In this document: positions 1,789 through 23,855 of the stretch, one piece after another
Layout of the letters: each line of letters opens with the position of its first letter
Numbering within the stretch: the first letter of the stretch is position 1
Virus record (IMG/VR): IMGVR_UViG_3300046458_000107
Coordinates: 1-23,855 of that record
DNA: 23,855 nucleotides
From: a virus
Strand: one strand, 5' to 3'
Program-made: the position numbers and the translations under genes
Notes under the pieces: model-generated
The model's input: only the letters and a program-made list of their open reading frames with translations
Told to the model about the DNA's origin: nothing
Database searches by the model: none

Positions 1789-2105
1789 TGGCTAATCCTC
1801 ACAGGCTGTACAGGCAATGTTTTTGCGAGGCTGATATTGAACTTCATCATGATATAGGTCAATGTTGATTCATCCGATCCGTTCAGCCACTGAGATCGGG
1901 CGTACCCCTTCCGGCACCGTGCCAGGCAGGTACGGTAAAAAATAAACATAAGAAAATGAGGCCCTCCATGATCCAGCTTTCACACTCCGAATCCGTTCGA
2001 CCTCCCGTCCGCATCGAGCCTGTCTCGACCTGAGTCACGCCGGCTACCTTGCAGCTGTCAGGCTGCCAGGCGCCCTACAAATTCAAGAAAAAAGGGAGTT
2101 CGACC
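1789..2105. promoter_or_regulatory. Divergent acnA/citrate-transporter intergenic region
   Basis: 317 bases with no convincing gene separate the two divergent genes, so both promoters and probably the operator of the nearby GntR regulator lie here. It contains a candidate acnA promoter (1834-1862), a short perfect palindrome GGCACCGTGCC at 1913-1923, and an AT-rich stretch near 1937-1955. The transporter Shine-Dalgarno (AGGGAG, about 2094-2099) is at the right end. No confident plus-strand promoter was recognised. Confidence 0.5.
1834..1862 (-). promoter_or_regulatory. Candidate sigma-70 promoter of acnA
   Basis: On the minus strand a TTGACC -35 (1857-1862) is followed after exactly 17 bases by CAATAT (1834-1839), about 45 bases upstream of the acnA ATG. 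The -35 matches consensus in five of six positions; the -10 is weaker. Predicted by eye only. Confidence 0.4.
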
Positions 2106-3422
2106 GTGCTGACAATCCTCGGCTTTTCGATGGTCATCTGTTTCATGTACCTGATCATGACCAAGCGCCTTTCGGCGTTGGTCGCTCTGATCCTGATCCC
2201 CATCCTGTTCGCCCTGATGGGTGGGCACTACGCAGGTTTGGGCGGGATGATGCTCGACGGCGTGAAAACGCTGGCCCCTACGGGCGTCATGCTGACGTTC
2301 TCAATTCTGTACTTCGGGATCATGATCGATGCAGGGCTTTTCGATGGGTTGGTGCGCTTCATTCTGAAGTTGGTGAAAGGCGACCCGTTGAAGGTACTGG
2401 TCGGTACAGCCGTGCTGACGATGCTGGTGTCGCTGGACGGTGATAGCTCAACGACTTACATGATTGCGTGCGCCGCCTTTCTGCCGCTTTATCAGCGCCT
2501 GGGCATGAGCGTTCTGGGTATGACGTGCCTGGTCAACATCGCCAGCGGCATCATGAACATCTCCCCATGGGGTGGCCCTACCGCGCGCGCAGCCGCTGCC
2601 TTGCATGTTGATGCCATGGACATCTTCGTTCCGATGATCCCTGGGATGCTGATCGGTGCTGCCTGCCTGGTGTTCACTGCCGTGATCCTGGGACGAAAGG
2701 AGCGTGCGCGCCTTGGCATCATTCACCTGGATGACTTCCACAACGGATCCATGGCGCTGGGCAACGGTTCTGCCGAAGAGTGTGACGGTAACCGCCGCCC
2801 GAAAATGTTCTGGCCGAATCTCATCCTGACGCTGACCCTGATCACATGCCTGGTGCTGGGCACTATGCCGATCCAGATACTGTTCATGGTCGGCTTTGCC
2901 ATCGCGATCATGCTCAACTATCCAAAAATCGAGGATCAGAAAGCCCGTATCGCGGCTCATGCAGCCAACGTACTGGCGGTAACGGCCGTCATCTTCGCCG
3001 CAGGTATCTTCACTGGAATCCTGTCTGGCACCGGCATGGTGGATTCAATGGCCAAGAGCCTGCTGCACGTGATTCCGCCGAGCTTCGGGCCATTCCTCGC
3101 GGTATTCACTGCTGTCGTCAGCCTGCCCTTCACCTTTTTCATGTCAAATGACGCGTTCTACTTCGGCATCCTGCCTGTGATAGCCCAAACTGCTGCCCAG
3201 TACGGCATTACGCCGTTGGAAATTGCCCGCGCATCCGTCGTTGGCCAGCCGGTACACCTGTTGAGTCCCCTCGTACCGTCGCTCTATCTGCTGGTTGCCC
3301 TGGCCAAAGTCGACCTGGGCGATCACCAGCGATTCGCGCTGAAATGGGCCATTCTCGCAAGCTTTGGATTGTTCGTAGGGGGCGTGCTGTTCGGGGCTTT
3401 CCCGTTCTATCAGGTTCGCTGA
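2106..3422 (+). CDS. CitMHS-family citrate/tricarboxylate-proton symporter
   Basis: Integral inner-membrane transporter of 438 residues, the usual size for CitMHS (citrate-metal:proton symporter) proteins. It begins with hydrophobic segments (LTILGFSMVICFMYLIM, then ALVALILIPILFALMGG), continues with roughly twelve hydrophobic stretches, and carries the family-like SLDGDSSTTYMI and SPWGGPTARAA loops. I chose the GTG at 2106 over an in-frame TTG at 2049 because AGGGAG sits seven bases upstream and the 19 extra residues look unlike a transporter N-terminus. It is divergent from the aconitase and followed by a GntR regulator. The substrate may be citrate, aconitate or a similar tricarboxylate; the sequence does not settle which. 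Confidence 0.88.
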   Translation: MLTILGFSMVICFMYLIMTKRLSALVALILIPILFALMGGHYAGLGGMMLDGVKTLAPTGVMLTFSILYFGIMIDAGLFDGLVRFILKLVKGDPLKVLVGTAVLTMLVSLDGDSSTTYMIACAAFLPLYQRLGMSVLGMTCLVNIASGIMNISPWGGPTARAAAALHVDAMDIFVPMIPGMLIGAACLVFTAVILGRKERARLGIIHLDDFHNGSMALGNGSAEECDGNRRPKMFWPNLILTLTLITCLVLGTMPIQILFMVGFAIAIMLNYPKIEDQKARIAAHAANVLAVTAVIFAAGIFTGILSGTGMVDSMAKSLLHVIPPSFGPFLAVFTAVVSLPFTFFMSNDAFYFGILPVIAQTAAQYGITPLEIARASVVGQPVHLLSPLVPSLYLLVALAKVDLGDHQRFALKWAILASFGLFVGGVLFGAFPFYQVR

Positions 3423-3540
3423 GCAGATAGTGCGCGCTCAAAGTACATCGGCGCAGATCAGGAAATGGTCTCTGCCGCTGCCTAAAATGACGCGCTAGAA
3501 TGGCGGCTCTCTGGTTCAGCTATTTCTGGTTCCCGATCCA

Positions 3541-4428
3541 ATGCCTCTAAGCCCACTGCAAGCACGCATTGCGCGTGACATCGTCTCTCACGTACGTCGT
3601 GAACGCTTCGCTATTGGTCATCATCTGGTCGAGTCCCAGCTGGCTACGACGCTCAATGTGTCGCGCACGCCAGTCAAGTTCGCCATGGGCCATCTGGTCG
3701 AAAAAGGCATGTTGACCTACGACCGCAACAGAGGCTTTTTCCTGGCCCGCGCGAGCGATGATCTGGGCGATCTGGTCTCTGAGGTCATGGAGAACAGCGA
3801 CGATCCTCTCTACCTGAAATTTGCAGAGCTGCGCCTGAGCAGACAGCTTCCAGAGCTGTTTACCGAGATCGAGTTCATGCGTCAGTTCGACGTTTCCAGA
3901 GCGGCTCTGCGAGCCGTACTCTCGCGGATCCAGCAAGAAGGCTGGGTTGAACAGCGAGCGGGCCAAGGGTGGCGCCTGTTGCCGATGATCGACTCTGTTG
4001 AGGCGTACGAGGAAAGCTATTCGTTCCGCGCCACCATCGAGCCTTCCGGTCTTCTGTCACCCACCTTTCAGATTGATCGCGAGACCCTGGCGGCCTGTCG
4101 TCGGCAGCAGGAATTCATTGCCAATGGCGGATACCTGACGATGACGCCGCAGGAGCTATTTGAGGCCAACTCGCAGTTCCACGAGACTCTGGCGGCATGT
4201 TCAGGCAACCGCTTCCTGCAGCAGACCGTACGTCGCCTCGACCAGCTACGCCGTCTCGTTGAATACCGGCAGGCAAGCGCGCGCGCACCTCGTAAAGGCC
4301 AGGCCGAAGAACACTTGGCGATTCTGGAATGCCTGGAGCGAGGAGACCGATTGGCCGCTGCTGATCAAATGCGGCGCCATCTGGAACAGGCGAGACGGCA
4401 CAAAGTCGACCCTGCGCTCTTCGAATAA
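3541..4428 (+). CDS. GntR/FCD regulator with tandem winged-helix domains
   Basis: A 295-residue DNA-binding regulator, longer than the usual 220-250 residues of FadR-subfamily GntR proteins. Two winged-helix domains can be read: residues about 5-70 (LATTLNVSRTPVKFAMGHL as recognition region) and about 95-148 (MRQFDVSRAALRAVLSRIQ, then a GQGWRL wing). A C-terminal FCD ligand domain follows (about 150-290), with His residues in FHETLAACSGNRFL, EEHLAILECLERGD and MRRHLEQA at the positions that usually bind metal and an organic-acid effector. There is no obvious Shine-Dalgarno before the ATG, so the start is less certain. Lying between the transporter genes, it probably controls the locus in response to an organic acid; that is inference. 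Confidence 0.87.
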   Translation: MPLSPLQARIARDIVSHVRRERFAIGHHLVESQLATTLNVSRTPVKFAMGHLVEKGMLTYDRNRGFFLARASDDLGDLVSEVMENSDDPLYLKFAELRLSRQLPELFTEIEFMRQFDVSRAALRAVLSRIQQEGWVEQRAGQGWRLLPMIDSVEAYEESYSFRATIEPSGLLSPTFQIDRETLAACRRQQEFIANGGYLTMTPQELFEANSQFHETLAACSGNRFLQQTVRRLDQLRRLVEYRQASARAPRKGQAEEHLAILECLERGDRLAAADQMRRHLEQARRHKVDPALFE

Positions 4429-4457
4429 CCCCTCCAGCCCCTCCCCTCCCAAGCCGT

Positions 4458-4481
4458 CACGCGATCTCTCCAGATCGCGTG
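4458..4481. terminator. Perfect 10-bp hairpin after the GntR gene
   Basis: CACGCGATCT and AGATCGCGTG form a perfect 10-bp stem around a four-base loop, 30 bases past the regulator stop. There is no T-run on either side, so it is a weak candidate for an intrinsic terminator. It could instead stabilise the 3' end of the message or be a protein-binding palindrome. Confidence 0.5.
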
Positions 4482-4559
4482 CGCCATTCCCTGCCTGTCG
4501 ATCCTGTGCCAACCCTTCAGGTCAGTCGTCAGCTTCATCTGCTTTTCAAAAAACACAGA

Positions 4560-4588
4560 TTGACTTATATCGTTACAAAGTTCATTTT
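4560..4588 (+). promoter_or_regulatory. Candidate promoter of the MFS transporter gene
   Basis: TTGACT (4560-4565), a 17-base AT-rich spacer, and CATTTT (4583-4588) lie about 105 bases upstream of the MFS start in a clearly AT-rich patch. The -35 is good and the -10 poor. The long leader would leave room for regulator binding. Confidence 0.35.
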
Positions 4589-4693
4589 TGCACTACACCA
4601 CGAAACAAGCTCTGGCACCGTGTCCGCCTGAACACACCCCTACCGCCAGAGACTTGATCGCGTACACACCACAATCAAAATAATGGTGAACAC

Positions 4694-6028
4694 ATGTCAT
4701 ACCGTAGAGGCTGGATAGCCGTCTTCCTATTCTCCCTGGCCATGATCAACTACATGGATCGCATCGCGCTTTCCATTGCGGCCAAACCCATCGCAGAGGC
4801 GTTTCATCTCACATCGGTCGGGATGGGCTACCTGTTCTCGTCCTTCATCTGGAGCTATGCGCTCTTCCTGATTCCGGTCGGGCTGCTGATCGATAAGTAC
4901 GGCGTGAAACGAGTCGGCGGCCTGGGGATTTTCATCTGGTCTCTGGCGACGGCACTCACCGGTGCCGCGTCCAGCTTCGCCAGTCTGCTGACCGCACGGC
5001 TGGTCATGGGGGCAGGCGAATCGGTCAGCAATCCGGTCGGGGCCAAGGTCATTCGTGAGTGGATTCCCAGCACGGAGCGCGGCACGATCACTGCCATCTT
5101 CAACAGTGGCTCATACGCTGGCCCGGCGATCTGTTCAGTGGTGCTCGCTGCCCTGGTTGCAGCATTCGGCTGGCGTATGTCGTTCGTGATCGCTGGCGCC
5201 ATTGGGTTCGTTTGGCTGGTGGCGTGGTATTGCTTCTACGACAAGCCTGAGCAGGTGAAGTGGCTGGAGAAAGAGGAGCGCGAACACATCGTTGCCACTC
5301 GAACCACAGGCTCGGCCGGTGGCACCGCTACCACGGGCCATGGCCTCAAAAAACTGCTGAAGACACCGACGCTCTGGGGCTTGGCCATCGCTCAAGGCTG
5401 CAACGTCTACACCCAGTATTTGTTCCTGACCTGGCTGCCAAGCTACCTGCAGGATGTGAGGCACCTGACCATTGCCAAGAGCGGTCTGTTCACTGCCATT
5501 CCTTACGCGGCCGCCGTGGTGTTGTGCATCGTGATCGGCAAATTGAGCGACCAGTACCTGAAAAACGGCAGCGGTGCCGCCTCGGGGAAACGTCGCAACG
5601 TCATCGCGCTGACGATGCTGGTTGCAAGCTGCATCCTGCTGATTCCCTTCGCTGACGATATCGCAGTGCTGGTGCTGATTTTCTCTCTGACACTGGCAGG
5701 TATCGCGTCGACCACGTCGCTCAACTTTTCGCTGCTCAACGACCTGCTTCCAAGCTCAGGAGACGTTGGCCGAGCCATGGCGTTCGTGGTGGTCGGTGGA
5801 AACATCTTCGGCATGTTGGCACCGATTGTGACGGGATACGTCATCACTGCCACAGGGAGCTATAACTGGGCGTTTGCCATCGCAGGAGCGCTGCTGGTGA
5901 CCGGCGCGGTCGTGATCTTGAGCATGACCAGAAAGCCCATGATCCCCGCCGAGCAGTCAGGTGTGCGCAAGAACGAGGAAAAGCCCAGAGAGTTCCTAGC
6001 GCTAACGCCAGAAACGACAAAGCCCTGA
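4694..6028 (+). CDS. MFS transporter, anion:cation symporter (ACS) type
   Basis: Inner-membrane major facilitator of 444 residues with twelve predictable membrane segments. Landmarks fit the ACS branch (relatives of galactonate, glucarate and hexuronate transporters): NYMDR in the first helix, DKYGVKRVGG in the loop between helices 2 and 3, and MGAGES in helix 4, whose Glu is a conserved substrate/proton residue in this branch. A polar central loop (about residues 195-225) separates the halves. The likely substrate is a carboxylate or sugar acid carried in by proton symport; which one cannot be told. The ATG at 4694 has only a weak ribosome site. The stop codon lies inside the terminator hairpin at 6014-6047. 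Confidence 0.88.
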   Translation: MSYRRGWIAVFLFSLAMINYMDRIALSIAAKPIAEAFHLTSVGMGYLFSSFIWSYALFLIPVGLLIDKYGVKRVGGLGIFIWSLATALTGAASSFASLLTARLVMGAGESVSNPVGAKVIREWIPSTERGTITAIFNSGSYAGPAICSVVLAALVAAFGWRMSFVIAGAIGFVWLVAWYCFYDKPEQVKWLEKEEREHIVATRTTGSAGGTATTGHGLKKLLKTPTLWGLAIAQGCNVYTQYLFLTWLPSYLQDVRHLTIAKSGLFTAIPYAAAVVLCIVIGKLSDQYLKNGSGAASGKRRNVIALTMLVASCILLIPFADDIAVLVLIFSLTLAGIASTTSLNFSLLNDLLPSSGDVGRAMAFVVVGGNIFGMLAPIVTGYVITATGSYNWAFAIAGALLVTGAVVILSMTRKPMIPAEQSGVRKNEEKPREFLALTPETTKP

Positions 6029-6860: not shown

Positions 6861-7769
6861 CTAAAGTGCCGTTCCCGAAATGTCGGATTGCGAATCTCCG
6901 GAGCTGAGATTCGGGACAGGGAGGCGAGTAATGTGGAATTCCATTCCTATCGATGAGATTTCCCCATGGTCAAAAGTCCAACGGTACATTTTCACTTCAG
7001 GATAATCTGACGCGAGCAACCCATAAATTTCTGCGAATCGTAGACATTCAAATCCTACTACGTGCACAGCTTTTAACACCGCTCGCAGAATTGGAAGAGC
7101 GCGCGAGCGGGCCACGAGCACTCTTACCTCCTCCTCATGCGCCCAATCTGAATGTTTCATCGAGGCCGCCCTTCCCGAAAGATCGAGCCCTACCTGCCGT
7201 CTAAAAGACTCATCTAAAGACATTTTTTGCAAGTGATACACATCCGCGTCGGGGCATTGGCGGGAGAGCTCCATGATCGCGTTGGCCATGTGTTGCGACT
7301 GATTAATTACCCTAGGGCCGGATGTGTATTCCACATCGCGTAAAAGCAGCCCGTGCTCCACAACGATGTCCCAGCTCCACTCCAACTCAAAGCAGACGCC
7401 TTTGCGTTCATCCGCGTAGTAGGCCCACATAGCCTGATGGTCTGGCCGCTTGCCAGTAGCAAAAATGCCTACCCTCTCAAGGCTCTCCTGAAACTGATTA
7501 TTTCTCCGAGATATCATCTGTTCCAGCTCGTGGATATCCGCCTCTGTATCCGGCTGATAACTCCAGGTCGGTCCACCCTGGGAAACACTTACCGCTGAGA
7601 AAGCCTCGAGCAATGCTTGCTGCTCCTCAGCAGCGGTTGCGTGGCTAAATTTCACCTCTAACGAATCATTCAATTGTCGAGGTGAAGCGAAATACAGCTC
7701 ACCAGATGACAGTCGACGAAGTGCACTATCCACGTTCATATATTTGAAACTTCTTGGAAACTCAACCAT
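6861..7769 (-). CDS. DUF2971-family protein
   Basis: A 302-residue soluble protein. It shows the usual DUF2971 pattern: an N-terminal FKYMNVDSALRRLSSGELYFASPRQLNDSLEVKF (here cited as FASPRQLNDSLE at about residues 27-38), a central MWAYYADERKGVCFELEW, then KHSDWAHEEEVRVLV. The molecular activity of this family is not known to me. Members turn up often in mobile elements and defence-rich islands. The ATG has AAGGG seven bases upstream. It stands alone on the minus strand between the att region and a HEPN-motif gene, in AT-richer DNA than the phage structural genes. A role in phage defence is inferred from context alone. Confidence 0.75.
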   Translation of the reverse strand: MVEFPRSFKYMNVDSALRRLSSGELYFASPRQLNDSLEVKFSHATAAEEQQALLEAFSAVSVSQGGPTWSYQPDTEADIHELEQMISRRNNQFQESLERVGIFATGKRPDHQAMWAYYADERKGVCFELEWSWDIVVEHGLLLRDVEYTSGPRVINQSQHMANAIMELSRQCPDADVYHLQKMSLDESFRRQVGLDLSGRAASMKHSDWAHEEEVRVLVARSRALPILRAVLKAVHVVGFECLRFAEIYGLLASDYPEVKMYRWTFDHGEISSIGMEFHITRLPVPNLSSGDSQSDISGTAL

Positions 7770-8186
7770 CCCGGTACCCTTCTCAAATTTCTGGCTTGAA
7801 CTAGCGTATGAGCGCTAGCCATGACGCCATGCCGATAACATACATCGAGGCAAAATCAAGCGGTTGTAAAGGTTTCATGCTGATGTTATGAGCATGACTT
7901 TGGCCGCCTGCACCTGTCTCTCGAGGGCTCCAGCCTAGCCTGCCTAATACGGGCGTCCATTAGGCTGCTCGGCTTGCCAATCAGCCCATCCTACTGGCCC
8001 GATATCCGTAGCATTTCGAATCGCGCTGCTACTAAGCTCTTGGACACTGCTCAACGGTGAGACATATGGTACAGATTATCGGAGTTTCTGATAGCATTAA
8101 GCCACTTTTACTAGGTAAGGGGCCATCGACCTGCTCCATGCGCTTCAGCCTAGTAGCTCATTGGCGCAATCAAATGGGATGTCAAG
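7770..8186. other. 417-base gene-free divergent region
   Basis: Separates the leftward DUF2971 gene from the rightward HEPN-motif gene and so should hold both promoters. Two small hairpins are visible: CTAGCG/CGCTAG near 7800-7819, and TCATGCT (7875-7881) with AGCATGA (7891-7897). No tRNA, long open frame with a ribosome site, or clear promoter could be recognised. Confidence 0.4.
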
Positions 8187-9074
8187 ATGGCTCGTACCGC
8201 AGGCTCAAATAACATTAAATCGTTCGAATCACGCGACACGCTTGCGACTACCAGCGGCAGAGATATACGCCACCTCGCTCGACAGAGCGACCTAACCCCA
8301 AGAGCACAATTCGAAGCGCTTTTAGTAAACCAAAAAAGCTACCTCTCCTGGATTGACTCCCGTCACAGTGAACTTCTGGACGCTAAGAAACTGCTTAAAC
8401 CGGAGGGCCGCGGCCCGAAAGACGCCGTCTACAGGAAGTATAAGTGGTACGCCGAACAGCAGTCGCTGCTTGAGGCGATAAACGGATTTGAAGTCTTCTA
8501 CAAATCTAGCTTTATTGCTTTGGCAAAAAGCGTCCGGACTCTTGTGCCCCCTAGTAAAATCAAGGGAAGCATTGAGGCTAAGGTACTATGGGCCACCCAA
8601 GGCGGCGCCTCATTTACTGCATTGATATTTGAATCCCAGCTCTATCACAATCTGGAAACAGTCGACGACACGCTTAATATGTTGATAGGTTGCCGAAGAT
8701 ATAACGTCAATAATCCTAACGGTCCGATGAGGAAGAGGGTGCGTGCGATTCAAGCAGCATTCCAAATCCGCCACACCTTGTCCCATAATCAGGGAACCGT
8801 GACTCAAAGTGACCGTGCAAAATTTTCAGCGATCGGATTTGATGTGGAACACTCGGAGGTCATCGATCCAGAAAAAGATCATCTGGGGAAAGTTATCCGA
8901 GATACCCTGCTCGCCGAGTCCAAAGAATTTACTAACTGGGTACTAGAAAAAACCGCGATTTTCCTTGCCCAATCGCATCAAAGCACCGGAAAACCACTGC
9001 CGGGCAAGCTCAAAGCAAAAATAGTTTCGCGATTAGGACAGCATGCTGAAATTGATAAGCTTCCTTGGACCTAA
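8187..9074 (+). CDS. HEPN-motif protein, candidate RNase effector
   Basis: A 295-residue soluble, mostly helical protein. Arg195-x4-His200 followed by Asn201 (IRHTLSHNQGTVTQSD) matches the HEPN ribonuclease motif, and the following G-x-V-x-x-x-x-x-K/F pattern resembles the RiboL-PSP-HEPN type. HEPN proteins of this kind cut RNA as toxins or abortive-infection effectors. No antitoxin (MNT nucleotidyltransferase) gene adjoins it, so it could be autonomous or act with a neighbour. The ATG has only a weak ribosome site. Base composition is visibly more AT-rich than the phage tail genes, suggesting separate acquisition. The motif is seen; the function is inferred from the family, and the rest of the protein is unfamiliar. 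Confidence 0.65.
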   Translation: MARTAGSNNIKSFESRDTLATTSGRDIRHLARQSDLTPRAQFEALLVNQKSYLSWIDSRHSELLDAKKLLKPEGRGPKDAVYRKYKWYAEQQSLLEAINGFEVFYKSSFIALAKSVRTLVPPSKIKGSIEAKVLWATQGGASFTALIFESQLYHNLETVDDTLNMLIGCRRYNVNNPNGPMRKRVRAIQAAFQIRHTLSHNQGTVTQSDRAKFSAIGFDVEHSEVIDPEKDHLGKVIRDTLLAESKEFTNWVLEKTAIFLAQSHQSTGKPLPGKLKAKIVSRLGQHAEIDKLPWT

Positions 9075-9243
9075 ACACTGCGATCGGGCGGCGCCGAGAA
9101 TTCTGCACCTCGAATAAGGCGAAAATACGCTAAGCACTAAGTTGAATATTGAGTGCATAACTGATCAAGCCAGGCGCTGAGCATTAACACATCAGGATAC
9201 GGCGCATCGTCCAAGCGTTTGACTGAAGCTCGGGCGAAGCACC

Positions 9244-9258
9244 GCAGACGGCGTCTGC
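9244..9258. terminator. Small hairpin between convergent genes
   Basis: GCAGAC and GTCTGC pair around GGC, between the convergent HEPN-motif and TOPRIM-like genes. It has no T-run, so it is a weak candidate. The rest of 9075-9291 shows nothing recognisable. Confidence 0.3.
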
Positions 9259-9291
9259 AGGCGCTACGCATTTAGATTCCAAGATCGCCCG

Positions 9292-10029
9292 TCAATGGGC
9301 TGAACTCCCTGCCGCCCCAGCCGCCTCGACATTTGGAGGCCAAATAGCCGATTCTAAACAACTGATAAACGCATCTAACGATGTAGAATTGTCTCGAACA
9401 GTCGTGTAGATCTCATCGAAGTCCAGATGTGAAATCAAGCTGTGAGTTTCTGCCTCTCTTTTCCGATAACGCTTGCCTACCAAGGCGTAGATATTCTTAA
9501 GAACTGTCGCTGGATGAGGAACATCCGTCTCAATGCTCGGACTTTCCGGATCGAAGCCGGTTTCCGCCCTAATCCGACCTAAAGTTAACGCTGGATCCAC
9601 TTTTTCGTAGTGGGTGGACTCGTTCAAGAACCAAGCTTCGACCTCTGCCACCGCCAAGAATATTCTGATCGTCTGGCCAGGAAAGTCTAGGCCACTCGTC
9701 AAGCCCGCTTCGAACCTTTCTCTTTTTTCTGGCGTTATTGGAAAAAGATCCCGTAGCCCGATAATCATTTTGAAATCTTTGGCTGCCAACGATTCTCGAC
9801 GCTCTAAGATGAAACTTTTAACGCCCTCATCTCCCCCACAGTTCACCAGCATGACAAAAACTTCGGCAGTTTCTTCCGGCGCTCCTTCAACTCGAATTTC
9901 ATGTAAAGCACCACCACGATGAAGCCAAAGCGCCACCCTGACAGCACCATGACCGGCGATCTCGGTCACCAGCCTATGGACGAAATGCAGTTCAGTTTGG
10001 CCCTCAACAAAAATAGCAACTTTTTTCAT
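9292..10029 (-). CDS. TOPRIM-like protein (DUF4276/RloB type), candidate defence nuclease
   Basis: A 245-residue soluble protein. The N-terminus KKVAIFVEGQTELHFVHRLV is the EGxTE opening of TOPRIM-like DUF4276/RloB proteins, and FLAVAEVEAWFLNE (about residues 125-138) is their second conserved acidic region. A strict DxD is not visible: the corresponding strand reads MIIGLRDLFP. Its ATG overlaps the stop of the ATPase gene by four bases (ATGA), so the two are translationally coupled and probably act together, as in two-gene ATPase-TOPRIM defence systems such as PARIS, where the ATPase senses and the TOPRIM protein is the effector. PARIS itself uses a DUF4435 protein, so this is at most an analogue. 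Nuclease activity is inferred. Confidence 0.72.
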   Translation of the reverse strand: MKKVAIFVEGQTELHFVHRLVTEIAGHGAVRVALWLHRGGALHEIRVEGAPEETAEVFVMLVNCGGDEGVKSFILERRESLAAKDFKMIIGLRDLFPITPEKRERFEAGLTSGLDFPGQTIRIFLAVAEVEAWFLNESTHYEKVDPALTLGRIRAETGFDPESPSIETDVPHPATVLKNIYALVGKRYRKREAETHSLISHLDFDEIYTTVRDNSTSLDAFISCLESAIWPPNVEAAGAAGSSAH

Positions 10030-11216
10030 TGCTTACCTTCCGACGCGTAATGCTTGCCGGAAAAAAAATCAAAATTACTAAGACCTGAATATGAGAACTC
10101 CTCGAAAACGTCCTGTGCATTCGTGTGATCAATCGCAGTAACTACAGCGCCTTCTCGTTGCAAAACAGACCAATATTCCAAGGAAACATAGTTCATTACA
10201 TATCGATCATTAGACGACATTACAATTTGAATATTATGCTTTAGCGCCTTTTTCATTAGCAATTCAATAAGCTTTCTAGACCTCTCGTGGTCCAGCCCTT
10301 CTCCGATATCATCAATTAAAACCAGTGGGCTATCACCGAGCTTAGGCTCACGGCCAACCATAGAGCTTCTGGTCCATAAAACATTCGCATTAAACTGTAT
10401 TATTATTGCCAAAGCCCGATACATGCCCTGGGAAAGATGGTCTTGCGCTACATAACAGCTCACTCGCTTTTCTTTCACCCCTAGTGCCATAGGGGCACTA
10501 CCATTTACGCTAAACCCACCACCCACTTGAACAAGTAAGATGTCATCGATCTCGTAGCCGATAGAGTTCATGTCTTCAACTACGGAGTCACGGTACTCAG
10601 CCTCAAAGCGAGCCTTCGTATTGGCGAAAACTTGGGTGACATTTTCCACCAGAGAGCTTACTTCTAAAATGGCAGTGGGATCAGGAGGTGGCGCTATGGT
10701 TCCAACCAAATTCCCCCTACCAAACTCTGAACCAAACCTATATAAACAGACATTCTTCGCCCACTTTTTTAGGTGATCGAACTGAGGATGTTGATAGGCG
10801 TCACTTCTAACCACCGCCATCAGTTGATTCCGATCAACCTTGTACTGAACTTTATTTTCCGTATTTTTTCGTAAAACAAAGCCCTCGCCTTTTTCATCGC
10901 GGCGCATCACAATTGAGTTCTTTATTCGGAAGAACTCGCTTACTACGACGCCGCCAGAGAAGGACACATGATAGGTTTGCTTCTCGACTGCCTCGCCTTT
11001 CGATCTGGCGAAATTAGCATCCCATGTGCCGCTGCCGAAACCGCCTACTCGCCCTGCCAACAACCCAGCCAGCGACGCTATTACGCTCAGAACACGGCTC
11101 TTACCGCTAGAGTTCTTTCCCACCAGTAAGGTAACGTGTCCAAAGTTAAGCTTCTTCACCGCCCAAGTTGTTGGCGTATTTTCATGCTCATGATAAGTCA
11201 ACGTTTTCAAGTACAT
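10026..11216 (-). CDS. AAA/ABC-type ATPase, partner of the TOPRIM-like gene
   Basis: A 396-residue single-piece ABC-fold ATPase of the AAA_15/AAA_21 kind. Walker A is GKNSSGKS (residues 33-40), a signature-like DHLSQGMYRALAI lies near 257-269, Walker B is LVLIDDIGEGLD near 296-307, and a switch-like IVMSSNDRYVM lies near 327-337. Walker B has Asp-Asp followed by Glu two residues later. There is no long coiled-coil insertion, unlike SMC/RecN. An upstream in-frame ATG at 11258 exists, but the ATG at 11216 has a strong GGGAGG about eight bases ahead and starts right before the first strand, so I chose it. It is the first gene of a two-gene operon. The DNA is clearly AT-rich, consistent with transferred cargo. 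Confidence 0.82.
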   Translation of the reverse strand: MYLKTLTYHEHENTPTTWAVKKLNFGHVTLLVGKNSSGKSRVLSVIASLAGLLAGRVGGFGSGTWDANFARSKGEAVEKQTYHVSFSGGVVVSEFFRIKNSIVMRRDEKGEGFVLRKNTENKVQYKVDRNQLMAVVRSDAYQHPQFDHLKKWAKNVCLYRFGSEFGRGNLVGTIAPPPDPTAILEVSSLVENVTQVFANTKARFEAEYRDSVVEDMNSIGYEIDDILLVQVGGGFSVNGSAPMALGVKEKRVSCYVAQDHLSQGMYRALAIIIQFNANVLWTRSSMVGREPKLGDSPLVLIDDIGEGLDHERSRKLIELLMKKALKHNIQIVMSSNDRYVMNYVSLEYWSVLQREGAVVTAIDHTNAQDVFEEFSYSGLSNFDFFSGKHYASEGKQ

Positions 11217-11438
11217 TGCAATTACCTCCCTGTCAAAAATCCCCTTATACTTGCACATCCGCCCCTAGAAATTCTAGCTCCCCCCTTCGCCAATCGTAAG
11301 CAGCAAGATCGCTTGAGGCCTAGGCAAAGTCTGCGGCTACCTCGCTGCAGCCCGGCATATGTACGACGCTCCTAAGCAGAAACCAAGTGGACGGAGGTAT
11401 ACCCGGGCGTACACACACTGAGGTCGTACTACCTTCGG

Positions 11439-12248
11439 TTAACAAACCCCTTGGGTGAACAGCCCACCCAGATCATCTGGCGTCCAGTTCATGATGATGA
11501 GCTCCTCACTGATGTCTGTTTTCGTTTGTCGCTGATTGGCCGTGCTATAGCGGATACGAATTTCTTCAAAATGAAACCCATCGAATACTTCTCGGATCGC
11601 AGGATGATCATTGATACTGACCATCACCTTCCCTTTACAGCGCCGCATGAAATCGGCCATGCGCTCGTAGTTCACAAACGCAAAATCTACGCCGTAACCG
11701 GCGGTCTGCCAGTACGGCGGGTCCATGTAATGGAAGGTGTGAGCCCGATCGTACCGCTCTGCGCATTCAAGCCACGGTAAATTCTCGACGTACGTGCCAG
11801 CGAGCCGCTGCCAAGCTGCAGACAAGTTCTCCTCGATACGCAGCAGATTGATGGCCGGGGCCGTGGTCGCGGTGCCGAACGTCTGGCTAGCAACCTTTCC
11901 CCCGAACGCATGCTGTTGCAGGTAGAAAAACCGCGCAGCGCGCTGGATGTCTGTGAGCGTTTCTGGACGGGTCATCTTCTGCCATTCGAAGATCTGGCGG
12001 GAGCTGAGCGCCCATTTAAACTGCCTGATGAATTCTTCAAGGTGATTTTGGACGACGCGATACAGCGTCACCAGATCGCCATTGATGTCGTTCAAGACCT
12101 CAACGGGCGCTGCCTGGGGACGCATGAAATAGAGGGCCGCGCCTCCAGCGAATACTTCGACGTAGCATTCATGAGGCGGGAAAAGCGGAATGAGACGGTC
12201 GGCAAGACGGCGCTTGCCGCCCATCCAAGGGATGATTGGACTGGACAT
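11439..12248 (-). CDS. Dam-family (D12 class) DNA adenine N6-methyltransferase
   Basis: A 269-residue enzyme that should transfer a methyl group from S-adenosylmethionine to adenine in a short DNA site. The motifs are in D12 (alpha) order: an N-terminal PWMGGKRRL, AdoMet-binding VFAGGAAL (residues 32-39), and the catalytic MDPPYW with D176-P-P-Y179. Full length matches phage-borne Dam proteins, which often protect phage DNA from host restriction. The ATG follows AAAGG about nine bases upstream, and a LexA box lies only 15 bases before it. No cognate restriction gene is adjacent, so it looks like an orphan phage methylase. The target sequence cannot be predicted from here. Confidence 0.9.
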   Translation of the reverse strand: MSSPIIPWMGGKRRLADRLIPLFPPHECYVEVFAGGAALYFMRPQAAPVEVLNDINGDLVTLYRVVQNHLEEFIRQFKWALSSRQIFEWQKMTRPETLTDIQRAARFFYLQQHAFGGKVASQTFGTATTAPAINLLRIEENLSAAWQRLAGTYVENLPWLECAERYDRAHTFHYMDPPYWQTAGYGVDFAFVNYERMADFMRRCKGKVMVSINDHPAIREVFDGFHFEEIRIRYSTANQRQTKTDISEELIIMNWTPDDLGGLFTQGVC

Positions 12249-17793: not shown

Positions 17794-20700
17794 TCAAACC
17801 CCCACATCAGCTGGCAGGCCGACACGATCCCATTTATCGAGCATCTGTCTTCCCTTATTGGAGTTGTCGAGGATGTCGTCGACCGGGCCCACCAACTTCT
17901 CTAGAAGCCCGGCAAGGCGGTCCAGCTTCTGGCCGACAGCATCGCTCCCGGCGGATCCGGACGAGGACGACACCTGGCCAAGCTTTGGAATCGACACGAC
18001 CGGGCCGCCCGCTGCAAATGCAGGCAGGCTCAGGTTGTTCATCTGATTGAGGAGATCGGTGCCGTAAGCGCTGACGGCAGCGGCATTCATCATGTACTCG
18101 CCGTTGGAAACCCGAGCCAGTATGCTGTCGCTTGTACCAGTACCTGGCCCCGAGATGAGCCCGCCACTGGCGAATGCTGGGAGCGTGCCGTTGGCTTTGG
18201 CCGCGTTGCGGATGGCCTGTTCGAGTTGATCAAGGCTGATCGCGCCGCTCGCCAGTTGCTGCTGCCAGTAGGCCCGACCCGCCGCGTCTGCTTGGTAGCC
18301 CGCGCCATATACCGACTGGTAAGCCGTATCGACGAAGACTCCGGAATTACCGGGAGTAAGCGACTTGCCGCCCGACAGGCCAGCTAGCGCCGCCACCACC
18401 GCAGCGTTCATTGCCTTCACCGCATCGGCAACGCTCTTTACGGAGTTGTCCACACCGTTCAGCGCGTCGAGTTGCGACTGAGCAAAGCTGAGCTGGGCGT
18501 CAAACACGGCTGTCTGCGCGTCATACGCCTTTTTTGCCTGGTCCAACTGGTCCTGCAGCGTCTTCACGGTCTGCTGAGCAGAGGTGAGCTGACGCCCGTT
18601 CAGTTGGTTCAGCTCGGCGACAACGTTCGCTGTCTCACCCTGGTCACGGTTGAAGTCCTCAAGCGAGGCGTACAGGTCCGTGCTGTTGCTGCCAATCGCC
18701 TCAAGCGCATCGCTCAACCCTGAGAAGTTGGCCAGGGAGCCGCCCGCGCGGGCCGTTGCCAGTGCACTTTGCAACGTGGCCTGCGCCTGCTTGCGGAGCA
18801 CCTTCACCGACTCGTCCGACGTTCCGCTCAGTTGCTTGAGCGCCGAGGTCAGGTTGTTGCTGACGCCGGTCAAGTCTCTGACCTTGGTGGTCGCCGCCGT
18901 CATCATGTCGTTCAGCGACGACACCTGGGCGTTATAAGCATCCGTCAGCGCTTTCTGTTGGGCCTGAATCGACCGCTGCAACGTCGAGAACGACGCGCCG
19001 GCGCCATCGACGAGCACCTGCTGTTGCTGAGCCAGAATGTCGTAGGCTGTTGAAGCGCTACCAGCCAAGCCCATCAGCTGGATAAACAGCGTGCGACCAG
19101 CGTCGGTGGTGCTGTCGATCCCCTCCACCATCGCCCTGAAGCCTTGCTTGCTGGCAGGGAACGTGATGTTCAGGTCGGCAAACTGTTTCTTCACTGCGTC
19201 CAGGGTATCTGCCGATTTCTCCGCCTCGGAGAAGAAGGCGCCGTAGTACGTCTGGGTCGCGGTACTGAAGTTCTGCATGCCGCCCGCGAGCGCCACGTAC
19301 TGCTCGGCCAATTTTCCGCCCCAAACCGAAACGGGCAGAGCATTGACGTTCAGCAGCTTGAAGGTGTCGTTGATGCTGTACAGGTTACTGACGAACTCGG
19401 TCAACTGGTTGACGTTGTAGCCATCCAGATCCAGCTTCATCGACTTAGAAATAGCACCTACCGCTTCATTTCCCAGCACCTCGAACCAGTCGGAAATCAA
19501 CTGCGTGACCTGGTCCGAGGTCAGGTCTTGAGTGCTGATCTGCTGCGCGGCAATGTTCAGTCCATCGAGTACGCCATCCTTGACGTCGACGTGCAGCTTG
19601 TCGAACAGATCGAAGACAGTGTCCAATCGGTCATCGAACGCATCTTGCAGCTGTCCTTGCAGCTCGTCGTCCAGCGCCGTCAGTTGGGTGCGCTTTTTGT
19701 TGCTGCCGAACAGCCCACCTTTTTTCTTCTGGTACTTGAACGCATATGCATCAAGATCGCCATCTTTGACGCCGAGTTGAATACCGGAGTTCTTTGTTAC
19801 CCAGTCGCCCGCGAACAATTTGGAACCACCGATGGAGCCGAGCAGGCCGCCCAGAACCGCACCAATTGCCGTGCCAATGCCGGGCATAATGTAAGTACCC
19901 AGCGCCGCACCGCCTTTCGCCCCTAAATACCCGCCTGCGGCACCTGCTGCAGCGCCTTTTGCCCCCGAGTTCTGGTAACCCATGAAGGCGCCGCCGATTG
20001 CGCTGAAATATGGGGCATATGCTGCAGCGCCAGCACCAACGCTTTGACCCAATGCCCCCGAACTCGCCTGATAACTGATAGGGGCATAGGTGAGCGCGCC
20101 GCTGCCATTACTGATAGTGCCAAACAGTTGACCAGCAGCTTGGTCCCAGCCAGCCAGCACGCCCGAGGAATAGCTACCCAGGCCGCTCCATGCTCCAGCC
20201 AGTCCGCCGCTTTGATAGCCAGTGTATAAGGCCTTACCCCAACCAGTAGCGGCGCTGTACAGCGAAGACGCCCCGTTGAGAAGAGAGCCGACGCCGATGC
20301 CCCCGCCGCCACCACCACCCAGCGCTGCGGTCTGGCCCGCCAAGCCGCCAACACCCAGCGCTGTCGCAATCTGGAGCACTATCGGTCGAGTGATCGCCAT
20401 ATGCGCCAGCTCGGCCAGCAGCTGTTTAAAGCCATCGATCAAACTCTGGGAAAACCCTTCGAAGCCCTTGTCGATATTTTTCCAAGCGTCAGCAAATGCA
20501 CCATCGACACGGTCAACCGCCCCCTCGGTGAATTTGCCCCAAGCCGTCGATGCATTCCTGTTTGTTTCATACTCCACACCCAGGCGCCGAAGTGCTGCCC
20601 GATAATCGTCAGCTCTTTCGGGGTAAAGCTTCATTGCAGCGTTAAGAGCTTTCTGGTCCTCGGTATAGTCCTTGAGCAGCTTCGACTCTGGGTAGAGCCG

Positions 20701-22554
20701 GTCCATGATACCGCCGGCGGAACCAGCCTTCTGCGCGAGATCGACAGCCGCCTGCTGAGCCTTAGTGGCGTCCAGCAGTTGCTGGTACTCCTTGCTACCT
20801 ACCTCAATGCTTTTGCCGGCGAGCGCGACTTGCATCGCCTTCTGGACGTTGTACGCCTGGAGAGCATCTGCACCCTGCAATGTGGCCGTGGCCAGCGCCA
20901 ACTGATCGGCAGCGTCCTTGCCAAGGTCATAGGCCTGCTTGCTGATGGCGAGTCTGTCCTCGGCGTCAGCCTGACCATGAATTGCTTTTTCGACTTCAGC
21001 GCGCGCCGCAGCGCCGGTCTTGAGCAGTTCCTGCTCGACCTTCTGCTGAAGGGTGAACTCGCGACTTTTGTCGATCCCGGCCAAATAGGCATCAGCGAGG
21101 CCGCCAGTCGAGCGGATCGCGATATCAGCTTGGGCCTTGAGATCTGCCAGCGCCTTGGCTTCGCGCTTTTTCTGAGCCTCCAGCTCTTTTGAAGCGGCGG
21201 TGTTCGCATTAGTCGCTGCGGTCTGCTTTCCAAACTGGGCCAGCACGTCACCGCCGGTGGCCAAGGCGGTTGCCCGTTCCTCGCGGTATTTCTTCAGGCG
21301 CTCATCAGCCGCCGCACTCTGCTGCTTGTACGCACCGACAGCAGCGTCACGCTCGGCGATAATCTGCTCGATGCTTCCTTCGCGAGCCTGATTGATAACG
21401 TTGAGCGAGCCAGTCAAGCGGGCGCCAACCTGGTCGAGGGTATCGTTTGTGAAAACGGCTTTAACACCGTCCTTGAAAGCGACTGCGTAAGCCTGAGCCT
21501 TGTCGAATCCGGCCAGCACCTCGACAGTCATCAACTGAATGAATGCCCGAACGTTCTCCGGGAAGTCGCTGAACGCCTCGATCATCGCGGCTGTAGCAAC
21601 ACCCATGTCAGAGCCGAGCTGACCGAAGAACTCGCTGAACAACCCGTCGAGAATGACGAGCAGTTCGCCAATATCCCCCACTACCCCGTCAAACTTCGAC
21701 CCGATAGCTTCGAGGTGCGCTTCAAACTGCCCCGAGGCAAGGGAGTCGTTCAAATCCTGCAGGCCGGTGGCGGCGATATCCACCGCGTCCTTCATCAGTT
21801 CGCCCAGGCCGCGCTCATTGATGAGGCGAAAGGTGGTATCCCAAGTGTCGCCAAGGTTGGAAATAGCACCGTCGAGCGTTTTAGCGCGCTGATCCATCGC
21901 GCCAGCGAAATCAGTGTTGCCCAGGTTCAGCAGGTAGCCTTCAATCTCCTTGGCGTTCTTGCCGATGGTGGTGGTTACACCTCGGAAGGTAAGAGAAACC
22001 TTATCGCCCTGCTGGCTGGAGGTGATCCCGAACTCTTTCAAGCGCTCGAATTCACCGGTCGCCGCATCGGCGACCGCCTCAATCATCTGATTGAGGTCCT
22101 TGCCCATGGCAGCTGCAGTGTTGCCGTAGGAGTTCAGCGCAGCCTCGGATGGCGTCAAACCGAGGTTCACCAGCTTGGTGAAGCCCTCAACGGCCTGGTC
22201 CAGGCTGTAAGGAGTTTGAGCGGCAAACCTTTGCAGCGCCTGGAATGCGACAGCAGCCTTTTCCGAGCTGCCGGTTGCGGTGATTAGGCCGGCATTGAGC
22301 ACATCGAACTGCCGCTGAACTTCCACAGCTTTGCTGAGGGCCTCGAACGCGGACACCGCGCTGACCAACGGGCCCAGCAGGCGCGTAGCAGCGCTCGCCA
22401 TGCCGCTGAAGGCACTGTCAACGCTACTGCCTGCCCGGTTGGTGTTATCGGCAAATTTCTTTACACGACTATCACCCAGGTCAAGCTCGCGGCGCAGACC
22501 GGCAGTAGTGGCTTCGATCCGAACGAGCATGCCTTGAATATCGGCATCAGCCAT
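17794..22554 (-). CDS. Phage tail tape measure protein
   Basis: 1586 residues, by far the longest gene. It sets tail length during assembly and is carried inside the tail tube. The N-terminus (DIQGMLVRIEATTAGLRREL) and the region near residues 65-260 (QRFAAQTPYSLDQAVEGFTK, GKDLNQMIEAVADAATGEFE) match the tape measure domain. Long coiled coils follow, then a Gly/Ala-rich hydrophobic zone (about 735-915) that should include the membrane-inserting part. More coiled coils lie at about 1190-1370. Near 1405-1450 a DUF4214-like stretch (YQSVYGAGYQADAAGRAYWQ) is embedded. GGAGAAA precedes the ATG, and a terminator hairpin lies immediately upstream of that. Confidence 0.95.
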   Translation of the reverse strand: MADADIQGMLVRIEATTAGLRRELDLGDSRVKKFADNTNRAGSSVDSAFSGMASAATRLLGPLVSAVSAFEALSKAVEVQRQFDVLNAGLITATGSSEKAAVAFQALQRFAAQTPYSLDQAVEGFTKLVNLGLTPSEAALNSYGNTAAAMGKDLNQMIEAVADAATGEFERLKEFGITSSQQGDKVSLTFRGVTTTIGKNAKEIEGYLLNLGNTDFAGAMDQRAKTLDGAISNLGDTWDTTFRLINERGLGELMKDAVDIAATGLQDLNDSLASGQFEAHLEAIGSKFDGVVGDIGELLVILDGLFSEFFGQLGSDMGVATAAMIEAFSDFPENVRAFIQLMTVEVLAGFDKAQAYAVAFKDGVKAVFTNDTLDQVGARLTGSLNVINQAREGSIEQIIAERDAAVGAYKQQSAAADERLKKYREERATALATGGDVLAQFGKQTAATNANTAASKELEAQKKREAKALADLKAQADIAIRSTGGLADAYLAGIDKSREFTLQQKVEQELLKTGAAARAEVEKAIHGQADAEDRLAISKQAYDLGKDAADQLALATATLQGADALQAYNVQKAMQVALAGKSIEVGSKEYQQLLDATKAQQAAVDLAQKAGSAGGIMDRLYPESKLLKDYTEDQKALNAAMKLYPERADDYRAALRRLGVEYETNRNASTAWGKFTEGAVDRVDGAFADAWKNIDKGFEGFSQSLIDGFKQLLAELAHMAITRPIVLQIATALGVGGLAGQTAALGGGGGGGIGVGSLLNGASSLYSAATGWGKALYTGYQSGGLAGAWSGLGSYSSGVLAGWDQAAGQLFGTISNGSGALTYAPISYQASSGALGQSVGAGAAAYAPYFSAIGGAFMGYQNSGAKGAAAGAAGGYLGAKGGAALGTYIMPGIGTAIGAVLGGLLGSIGGSKLFAGDWVTKNSGIQLGVKDGDLDAYAFKYQKKKGGLFGSNKKRTQLTALDDELQGQLQDAFDDRLDTVFDLFDKLHVDVKDGVLDGLNIAAQQISTQDLTSDQVTQLISDWFEVLGNEAVGAISKSMKLDLDGYNVNQLTEFVSNLYSINDTFKLLNVNALPVSVWGGKLAEQYVALAGGMQNFSTATQTYYGAFFSEAEKSADTLDAVKKQFADLNITFPASKQGFRAMVEGIDSTTDAGRTLFIQLMGLAGSASTAYDILAQQQQVLVDGAGASFSTLQRSIQAQQKALTDAYNAQVSSLNDMMTAATTKVRDLTGVSNNLTSALKQLSGTSDESVKVLRKQAQATLQSALATARAGGSLANFSGLSDALEAIGSNSTDLYASLEDFNRDQGETANVVAELNQLNGRQLTSAQQTVKTLQDQLDQAKKAYDAQTAVFDAQLSFAQSQLDALNGVDNSVKSVADAVKAMNAAVVAALAGLSGGKSLTPGNSGVFVDTAYQSVYGAGYQADAAGRAYWQQQLASGAISLDQLEQAIRNAAKANGTLPAFASGGLISGPGTGTSDSILARVSNGEYMMNAAAVSAYGTDLLNQMNNLSLPAFAAGGPVVSIPKLGQVSSSSGSAGSDAVGQKLDRLAGLLEKLVGPVDDILDNSNKGRQMLDKWDRVGLPADVGV

Positions 22555-22629: not shown

Positions 22630-23265
22630 TTAGGGGCTTTTTGCTCGCACTTCTGCTGCATCAATGAGCTTCTGCGCCGCATCAACAAGAGCGAGCGATA
22701 TGGCTTTGCTTACGTCAGATTCTCTGATCGCAATAAACGTGACCGGTAAAGAGCCGGTACCCGTGACTTCTATTTGTTCAGCGGGCTTGCCGGGTGATTC
22801 AACTGTGGCCGTTAAGCGCAACTTCGCCCCGACGACTGCATCTACGCCTGATCCGATAATGGGACTCAGACCCATGAAGCCCATAGCTTTGCTATCGTCG
22901 ACACCAAATTCTAGTTTCGTCTCTCCCGGTTTCAGCTTCACGGTGGACTGCATGCCGTTATCCGTATCGCCAACCGCCGCTGTGGGAATCCGGCTGCGGA
23001 GATCCTCAGCCAGCAATTTACTCAACGGCGCACCTACGACGATCTCAAAATCTCTGTGGCGCCACGAATCACCGTAGGCCGGACTCTGAGTGAGTATTCG
23101 CCTTTGAAACTCCTGCGACAGAATGAGCTGTGCAGAGGCGTCTTTCAGCGGGGTCTTGTAGGTGTATTGCGGCTGTGGCTCGGGCCGAACCTGAATAGGT
23201 GAGCAAGCGCCGATGAGCGCAGATGCAGCACAAATGATGGCAAGTTTGAAAAGTAGTTTTCTCAA
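22630..23265 (-). CDS. Lipoprotein moron between tail chaperone and tape measure genes
   Basis: A 211-residue exported lipoprotein. From a TTG start at 23265, with AGGGAGGGAG just upstream, it reads MRKLLFKLAIICAASALIGAC, a textbook signal peptide with lipobox LIGAC and Cys21. Serine at the next position suggests sorting to the outer membrane. The mature part has a mixed alpha/beta pattern (FEIVVGAPLSKLLAEDL, KLRLTATVESPGKPAEQIEV) reminiscent of YajG-like lipoproteins, but I cannot place it firmly. A host-envelope lipoprotein in the middle of a tail operon, with its own strong ribosome site and a terminator behind it, fits a lysogenic-conversion moron, for example a superinfection-exclusion factor. 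That role is inference. Confidence 0.78.
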   Translation of the reverse strand: MRKLLFKLAIICAASALIGACSPIQVRPEPQPQYTYKTPLKDASAQLILSQEFQRRILTQSPAYGDSWRHRDFEIVVGAPLSKLLAEDLRSRIPTAAVGDTDNGMQSTVKLKPGETKLEFGVDDSKAMGFMGLSPIIGSGVDAVVGAKLRLTATVESPGKPAEQIEVTGTGSLPVTFIAIRESDVSKAISLALVDAAQKLIDAAEVRAKSP

Positions 23266-23316
23266 GCGACTCCCTCCCTGTAGTCGCGGCAATCTACCAT
23301 CAACAACCTTGGATCA

Positions 23317-23556
23317 CTATTGCTTGCGGCTCATCGCCGCCACCCTGAACCCCATCCGAACTTCCTTGGCCACAGCCTTTTTGTCGACCTTCTCCTCCGC
23401 CTGGCCCCAAGGGTTCGTTTTTTTGAGGAAGTCGAGCTTCGCCTCCCATGCCGTCAGGATCTCGATGATTGGGGTGTCCCACGCATCGCGCGGCGGCCAG
23501 CCCAAATAGCCGGTAGCTATTCCGAAGATTTCGTCAATGTAGCTTCCGGGTTTTCG
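23317..23556 (-). CDS. Tail assembly chaperone T part, read by -1 frameshift from G
   Basis: This 79-residue segment (from the slip point, RKPGSYIDEIFGIATGYLGW, onward) is open in the -1 frame relative to gene G and extends past the G stop at 23517. It has no good independent start: the first candidate is a TTG at 23505 without a ribosome site, and the continuous reading through IDEIFGIATGYLGW looks like genuine protein. It is the equivalent of lambda T, made only as the GT fusion that loads tail tube subunits onto the tape measure. It lies just upstream of the lipoprotein moron and tape measure genes, as expected. Confidence 0.82.
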   Translation of the reverse strand, partial: RKPGSYIDEIFGIATGYLGWPPRDAWDTPIIEILTAWEAKLDFLKKTNPWGQAEEKVDKKAVAKEVRMGFRVAAMSRKQ

Positions 23557-23855
23557 TTTCCCTGATCGGAAGCCTCGGCCAATTCCGCGTCGGTCTTGCC
23601 GCCCGGGTTGAGCAGGGCCTTTATGAATGGAATCACCTGGTTGGCGACGATGGTGGTTCCGCCGTCGAATACGGCCTCTTCGACCTGCTCCACCTCTTTA
23701 CGCTTGTTGGTGTCGATACCGGAGCCAGCCGCAATTATCAGCGCGATAGCAGTCAGGTTCCCTTGGCCAACGGCACTCAGTGCGGGCAACAGGCCGCCGA
23801 ACTTCGACTCAATGGCACGGGCAGCACGCAGGTTGGACTTCAGGGTGTAGGAGGT
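23517..23855 (-). CDS. Tail assembly chaperone G, 5' end off the window
   Basis: 112 residues are visible in an open frame that runs through the right edge (TSYTLKSNLRAARAIESKFG at the edge), so the true start is outside. The pattern LRAARAIESKFGGLLPALSA, followed by a helix and a polar tail, is that of lambda-gpG-like tail chaperones encoded between the major tail protein and the tape measure gene. The protein ends at a TAG in 23517-23519 unless ribosomes slip at 23556-23562, giving the longer GT product. An internal TTG at 23789 is not the start, because coding sequence continues upstream. Confidence 0.85.
   Translation of the reverse strand, partial: TSYTLKSNLRAARAIESKFGGLLPALSAVGQGNLTAIALIIAAGSGIDTNKRKEVEQVEEAVFDGGTTIVANQVIPFIKALLNPGGKTDAELAEASDQGNENPEATLTKSSE
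23556..23562 (-). promoter_or_regulatory. Programmed -1 ribosomal frameshift site, G GGA AAC
   Basis: Near the end of gene G the minus strand reads GGGAAAC in the correct phase for X-XXY-YYZ (codons CAG GGA AAC). It differs from the lambda G/GT site GGGAAAG only in the last base. A -1 slip here enters a frame open for 79 codons, exactly the T coding region. Confidence 0.9.

Follow-up and report, generated by a model that had tools for sequence, protein, structure and literature searches.

A probable programmed -1 ribosomal frameshift of the lambda G/GT kind in a putative tail chaperone gene pair of a provirus fragment and its relatives

Two overlapping reading frames, G and T, on the minus strand of the complete IMG/VR record IMGVR_UViG_3300046458_000107 (23,855 bases, hereafter the window) very probably (about 95%) form a programmed -1 ribosomal frameshift pair of the phage lambda G/GT kind. 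The sequence shows a slip site in phase with G, no alternative start for T, a conserved heptamer and, at that heptamer, a switch of coding constraint; the slippage itself, its rate, the chaperone role and the G:GT copy ratio are what we infer. The first-pass annotation had proposed a programmed -1 frameshift here, and both the conservation of the heptamer and the absence of an independent T start in the window support that proposal. The device is textbook in kind, and this family is a further case of it, with value for annotation.

ORF G, the putative short tail assembly chaperone (23517..23855, minus), comprises 112 codons, is open at the contig end at 23855 and stops at TAG 23519-23517. Its 5′ end is cut by the contig end, so that about 15 N-terminal residues are absent compared with L067, the closest relative, whose T part is 91% identical. 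The heptamer G GGA AAC, the candidate -1 slip site (23556..23562, minus), lies in phase with G (...CAG GGA AAC GAA...), 36 nt before the G stop. The first-pass annotation had reported GGGAAAC at 23556-23562 in X-XXY-YYZ phase, with the -1 frame open for 79 codons past the slip; its coordinates, phase and codon count were right, and only the strand had been left unnamed. It had also described the site as joining G and GT: the join by frameshift is supported, and the correct wording is that G and T together give GT. A -1 slip yields GGG AAA followed by CGA AAA CCC GGA AGC TAC ATT GAC ..., translated as RKPGSYIDEIFGIATGYLGWPP..., and the T extension, the C-terminal part of GT (23317..23556, minus), continues for 79 codons to TAG 23319-23317. 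This extension is supported by the match of the GT fusion to phrog_7493, the T alignment and pN/pS ratios.

Under the proposed mechanism, most ribosomes would read G and stop at TAG 23519-23517, producing the short tail assembly chaperone, and a minority, with P- and A-site tRNAs on GGA AAC, would slip back one base onto GGG AAA. Having slipped, these ribosomes would bypass the G stop and translate a further 79 codons; the resulting GT fusion would have 179 residues in the portion that the window contains. By analogy with lambda, many G and few GT molecules would coat the downstream-encoded tape measure protein, the T part would recruit tail tube subunits, and both chaperones would leave the finished tail. 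The slippage rate would, again by analogy, be a few per cent; for two genes belonging to a tail chaperone cluster, measurements gave 6-7% frameshifting (PMC3711429). A point against the mechanism is that, judging by how A_AAA_AAC compares with A_AAA_AAG in PMC5009743, a site with AAC as its second codon should slip less readily on E. coli ribosomes than one with AAG.

The distribution of substitutions between the window and L067 differs between the two frames. Before the heptamer, the 0 frame had a pN/pS of 0.25 and the -1 frame one of 1.87; after the G stop, the values were 1.75 for the 0 frame and 0.105 for the -1 frame. In the stretch from the heptamer to the G stop, where the counts are small, the -1 frame carried three synonymous and one other substitution and the 0 frame zero and three, respectively. 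This pattern indicates that at the heptamer the 0 frame hands over to the -1 frame as the one under protein-level selection.

The possibility that T has a start of its own was examined by sequence. On this view T would be a separate small gene, started for example at TTG 23505; reinitiation or translational coupling would bring ribosomes to it from G, and no frameshift would be involved. Indeed, a TTG-started ORF of 62 codons is present in the window, depositors annotated T separately in 18 phage records, and a GTG lies between the heptamer and the T motif in 12 of the 50 relatives in which that motif was located (in the other 38, no start codon precedes it). In the window, however, the -1 frame is open upstream as far as 23697, and no ATG, GTG, TTG or CTG occurs between the opening stop and TTG 23505, the first start in this frame. 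No Shine-Dalgarno sequence was found before TTG 23505, and this codon falls within the invariant ATG(W/Y)LGW motif of the T alignment; because it lies inside the motif, initiation there would lose conserved residues and could not make the conserved protein. Moreover, an independent start leaves unexplained both why 66 of 67 relatives have a slippery heptamer in phase and why constraint on the -1 frame begins at the heptamer. We therefore regard an own-start T as very unlikely and retain the programmed frameshift.

For the comparison with relatives, loci were gathered by their G part or T part, profile HMMs were built from the first seven-sequence alignments, and the frame relation of G and T was measured in every fetched locus (n = 145, some contigs being counted twice because two scans fetched them). 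In 133 of the 145, T lay in the -1 frame and the overlap contained one of three heptamers in phase. The remainder comprised one -1 locus without a heptamer (L063), four loci with offset 0, one with offset +1 (L077) and six in which the G HMM found no G part. L077 is a short contig in which AAAAAAG also directly precedes a stop, and its +1 offset is likely to come from an assembly indel. After near-copies were removed, 66 of the 67 loci with the -1 relation had an in-phase GGGAAAC, GGGAAAG or AAAAAAG. Thus, the alignment of relatives, proposed earlier as a check on conservation of the site, revealed a strongly slippery heptamer in phase in nearly every non-redundant -1 locus.

In the G/T overlaps of these 67 loci, the three heptamers occupied 68 of 1568 in-phase codon positions, compared with 3 of 3002 out-of-phase positions in the same overlaps and a background of 14 of 60960 in-phase positions in other long ORFs of the same loci. 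The enrichment over background was about 190 times (odds ratio ~197); the three heptamers were chosen after a first census and the loci are related, so p-values should not be read at face value. The heptamers stand out so far from the other two phases and the background that neither the post-hoc choice nor kinship affects the conclusion. What exceeds chance is the phase of the heptamer, its place in the G/T overlap and its conservation; the heptamer alone does not, as GGGAAAC occurs four times in the window against 2.9 expected.

This frequency is one reason to consider a chance heptamer next to a chance open -1 frame, or else a single gene broken by a mutation or sequencing indel, the latter being conceivable given that relatives with a fused single ORF exist. 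Against both stand the strong protein constraint on the -1 frame and the recurrence of the same frame relation with a slippery heptamer in dozens of independent assemblies and isolate phages. Judged from these comparative data, an accidental origin is vanishingly improbable and already refuted in practice. Two further in-phase XXXYYYZ heptamers in the G frame of the window, CCCGGGC at 23607 and AAACCCG at 23553, were rejected as slip sites; in each the second triplet consists of G and C only, and neither recurs at that place in relatives.

GGGAAAC and GGGAAAG together account for 54 of 66 relatives, and the distant relatives Alize, 5400 and VW-6S carry GGGAAAG, which we take to be lambda's own heptamer. 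On a tree of the 66 fusions, the heptamer type requires at least five changes. The AAAAAAG loci form one group on this tree, and in them the heptamer directly abuts the G stop. Two loci (L089 and L145) contain two in-phase heptamers in the same G/T overlap, GGGAAAC and, 9 nt on, AAAAAAG.

The use of AAAAAAG by some relatives raises the question of whether the frame changes by slippage of the polymerase on the A run rather than of the ribosome. Runs of about eight or more are required for the polymerase to slip, and the GGGAAAC of the window has runs of three only. In addition, GGGAAAC and GGGAAAG are typical tandem-tRNA slip sites. Transcriptional slippage is accordingly extremely unlikely as the source of the frame change, which we continue to attribute to the ribosome.

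Sequences that might stimulate a ribosomal shift were compared with the dnaX-type cassette (slip site, upstream Shine-Dalgarno and downstream hairpin). Upstream, the window has GAGG (23573..23576, minus) 10 nt before the heptamer, a possible, doubtful, weak Shine-Dalgarno-like stimulator. Such a motif was found in 21 of 66 relatives, compared with 15% of control positions; being present in only about one third of relatives, it is doubtful as a family-wide feature. The stability of RNA downstream of the heptamer was tested against dinucleotide and synonymous shuffles, with nested structures only. In the window, no convincing nested stimulatory structure was found (z -0.36 against synonymous shuffles), and a downstream stimulator was not supported there, which speaks against the frameshift reading. 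Taken together, the family does lean that way: the mean z of the downstream RNA against synonymous shuffles was -1.24, with 30% of loci below -2, compared with -0.26 and 3% in a control region later in T. Downstream stability was strongest in the AAAAAAG loci (z -2.0).

Homologues without the heptamer, which the first-pass annotation had named as evidence that would speak against the frameshift, do exist in alphaproteobacterial elements, but G and T there already form one in-frame ORF, so these homologues support the fusion instead of refuting it. In about ten elements (L056-L062 and L064-L066), including Devosia, Sulfitobacter and Yoonia as well as an unclassified proteobacterial MAG (L058), the T motif lies within an ORF of about 200 amino acids. 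When nine of these in-frame proteins were aligned, the N-terminal part matched the G profile (hhalign E 1.7e-12, probability 97.7) and the C-terminal part the T profile (E 2.3e-15, probability 98.5), in one frame. Additionally, Phage_TAC_6 was matched in the T part of eight of the nine members (best 9.8e-6, scans at E up to 1), and a structural model of one in-frame protein resembled phage tail assembly protein/chaperone entries (probability 1.00, E ~1e-3). These predicted proteins independently point to G-T as a single polypeptide.

In the eight in-frame loci tested, a separate PF11836 (GTA gp10) gene, above cut-off, lies upstream of the protease-capsid fusion gene, which together with the in-frame G-T gene suggests that the short and long forms may come from two genes. 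In profile comparison, the separate PF11836 protein showed no significant similarity to the N-terminal part of the fusion (E 0.023 and 0.08), which led us to reject the idea of a close copy of the fusion's G part. Because the PF11836 protein is not detectably a copy of the N-terminal part, replacement by two genes stays a lead. Tentatively, and with slightly less than even confidence, the frameshift might be a replaceable device, its heptamer being swapped within the family and doubled in two loci, and abandoned in the alphaproteobacterial elements for an in-frame G-T, with the PF11836 gene perhaps giving the short form.

G of the window matched phrog_6454 (residues 2-97 on 17-109 of 114, E 1.4e-25) and, weakly, phrog_2115 "tail protein" (E 1.9e-5), and was aligned to its relatives. 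The T part alone matched the C-terminal third of phrog_7493, and the in-silico GT fusion matched that family end to end (6-177 on 2-173 of 178, E 1.2e-23). By profile match, then, G is phrog_6454 and the GT fusion phrog_7493; both families are listed as "unknown function", neither as chaperones nor as one frameshifted gene. A Pfam search of the window's own G and T gave no meaningful match, Phage_TAC_11 and Phage_TAC_6 included. Distant relatives of G reached Phage_TAC_11 (GTA gp10) with a best E of 6.7e-5 and up to 23.3 bits, below the cut-off of 27.8. The likeness to GTA-type chaperones (Phage_TAC_11 and Phage_TAC_6) is seen via relatives of G and the T part of the in-frame relatives. The AlphaFold model of G (pLDDT 80) had no fold match in the PDB, and G had no sequence match among solved structures; in a viral structure library, the model gave weak matches, several of them named tail assembly chaperone.

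The tape measure protein gene (17794..22554, minus; phrog_1538 E 8.2e-58; Pfam TMP_3 E 1.8e-11, above cut-off) lies downstream of the pair in the window, and the contig ends short of the tail tube gene. In VW-6S, the pair sits between an annotated tail tube gene, directly upstream, and the tape measure gene. Gene order, the frameshift architecture and distant family matches, rather than a solved fold, are the grounds on which we propose the chaperone role for G/GT.

The lambda G/GT arrangement is widely conserved in long-tailed phages, and G_GGA_AAC and G_GGA_AAG are among the g-t shift sites of haloarchaeal viruses (PMC5009743, reviewing, for the former, Levin 1993; Xu 2004, 2013, 2014). The window pair shares with lambda the overlapping ORFs upstream of the tape measure gene, a T that lies in the -1 frame and lacks a start codon of its own, and a heptamer near the 3′ end of G. 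It differs in that these searches revealed no recognisable similarity of its proteins to lambda G or T, in that its heptamer ends in C, and in that a lipoprotein-like ORF intervenes between T and the tape measure gene. The pair is likened to lambda on the basis of sequence, with copy ratio and slippage as predicted features. Unlike RcGTA, which has two chaperone genes, g10 (pfam11836) and g10.5 (PMC11409702), the window has one frameshifted pair. In the Pseudomonas phage Adele/Vandenendeviridae, a tail chaperone -1 frameshift at a GTTTTT motif was argued from conservation (PMC12846349, 2025); it leads from TAC-N to a downstream ORF annotated as a separate hypothetical gene, as in the window's family. 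Those phages, likened here by description, differ in being myoviruses and in the GTTTTT motif.

No paper on this chaperone family was found in the literature searched, which left out most subscription papers. The analysis offers a likely function and a correct gene model for two PHROG families of unknown function. It had been anticipated that automatic annotation would split the pair, and this was the case in all 18 related isolate Pseudomonas phage records found, where it is entered as two separate hypothetical proteins, an entry that the present gene model corrects. The three heptamer types and the in-frame relatives form a natural series for asking how the proportion of short to long chaperone is maintained as one slip site gives way to another. 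The family does not alter the wider understanding of frameshifting in tail chaperones.

The lipoprotein-like ORF between T and the tape measure gene (22633-23292, minus) has 220 codons from TTG 23292, or 211 from TTG 23265, which is preceded by GGGAGGG. It had no PHROG, Pfam or isolate-phage match, and among the non-redundant relatives a homologue was found in L010 and L067 only. Many relatives have 3-82 nt separating T from the tape measure gene and others about 390-1850 nt, so that this interval looks like a slot for variable cargo genes.

The pair sits in an integrated provirus fragment with one host flank, and the provirus may be defective elsewhere. The record was recognized as a provirus with one flank because positions 1-6028 carry host chromosomal genes, namely an aconitase-like ORF (named by eye), a CitMHS-type transporter, a GntR/FCD regulator and an MFS transporter. 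Between these host genes and the phage lysis end, a gene cluster (6861-12248) comprises a DUF2971 protein (PADLOC PDC-S31), an ORF without a match (8187-9074), a D12 adenine methyltransferase, and a DUF4276 and AAA_21 pair with weak HEC-01B/HEC-01A and AriA-like matches. This cluster is possibly defence cargo of the provirus.
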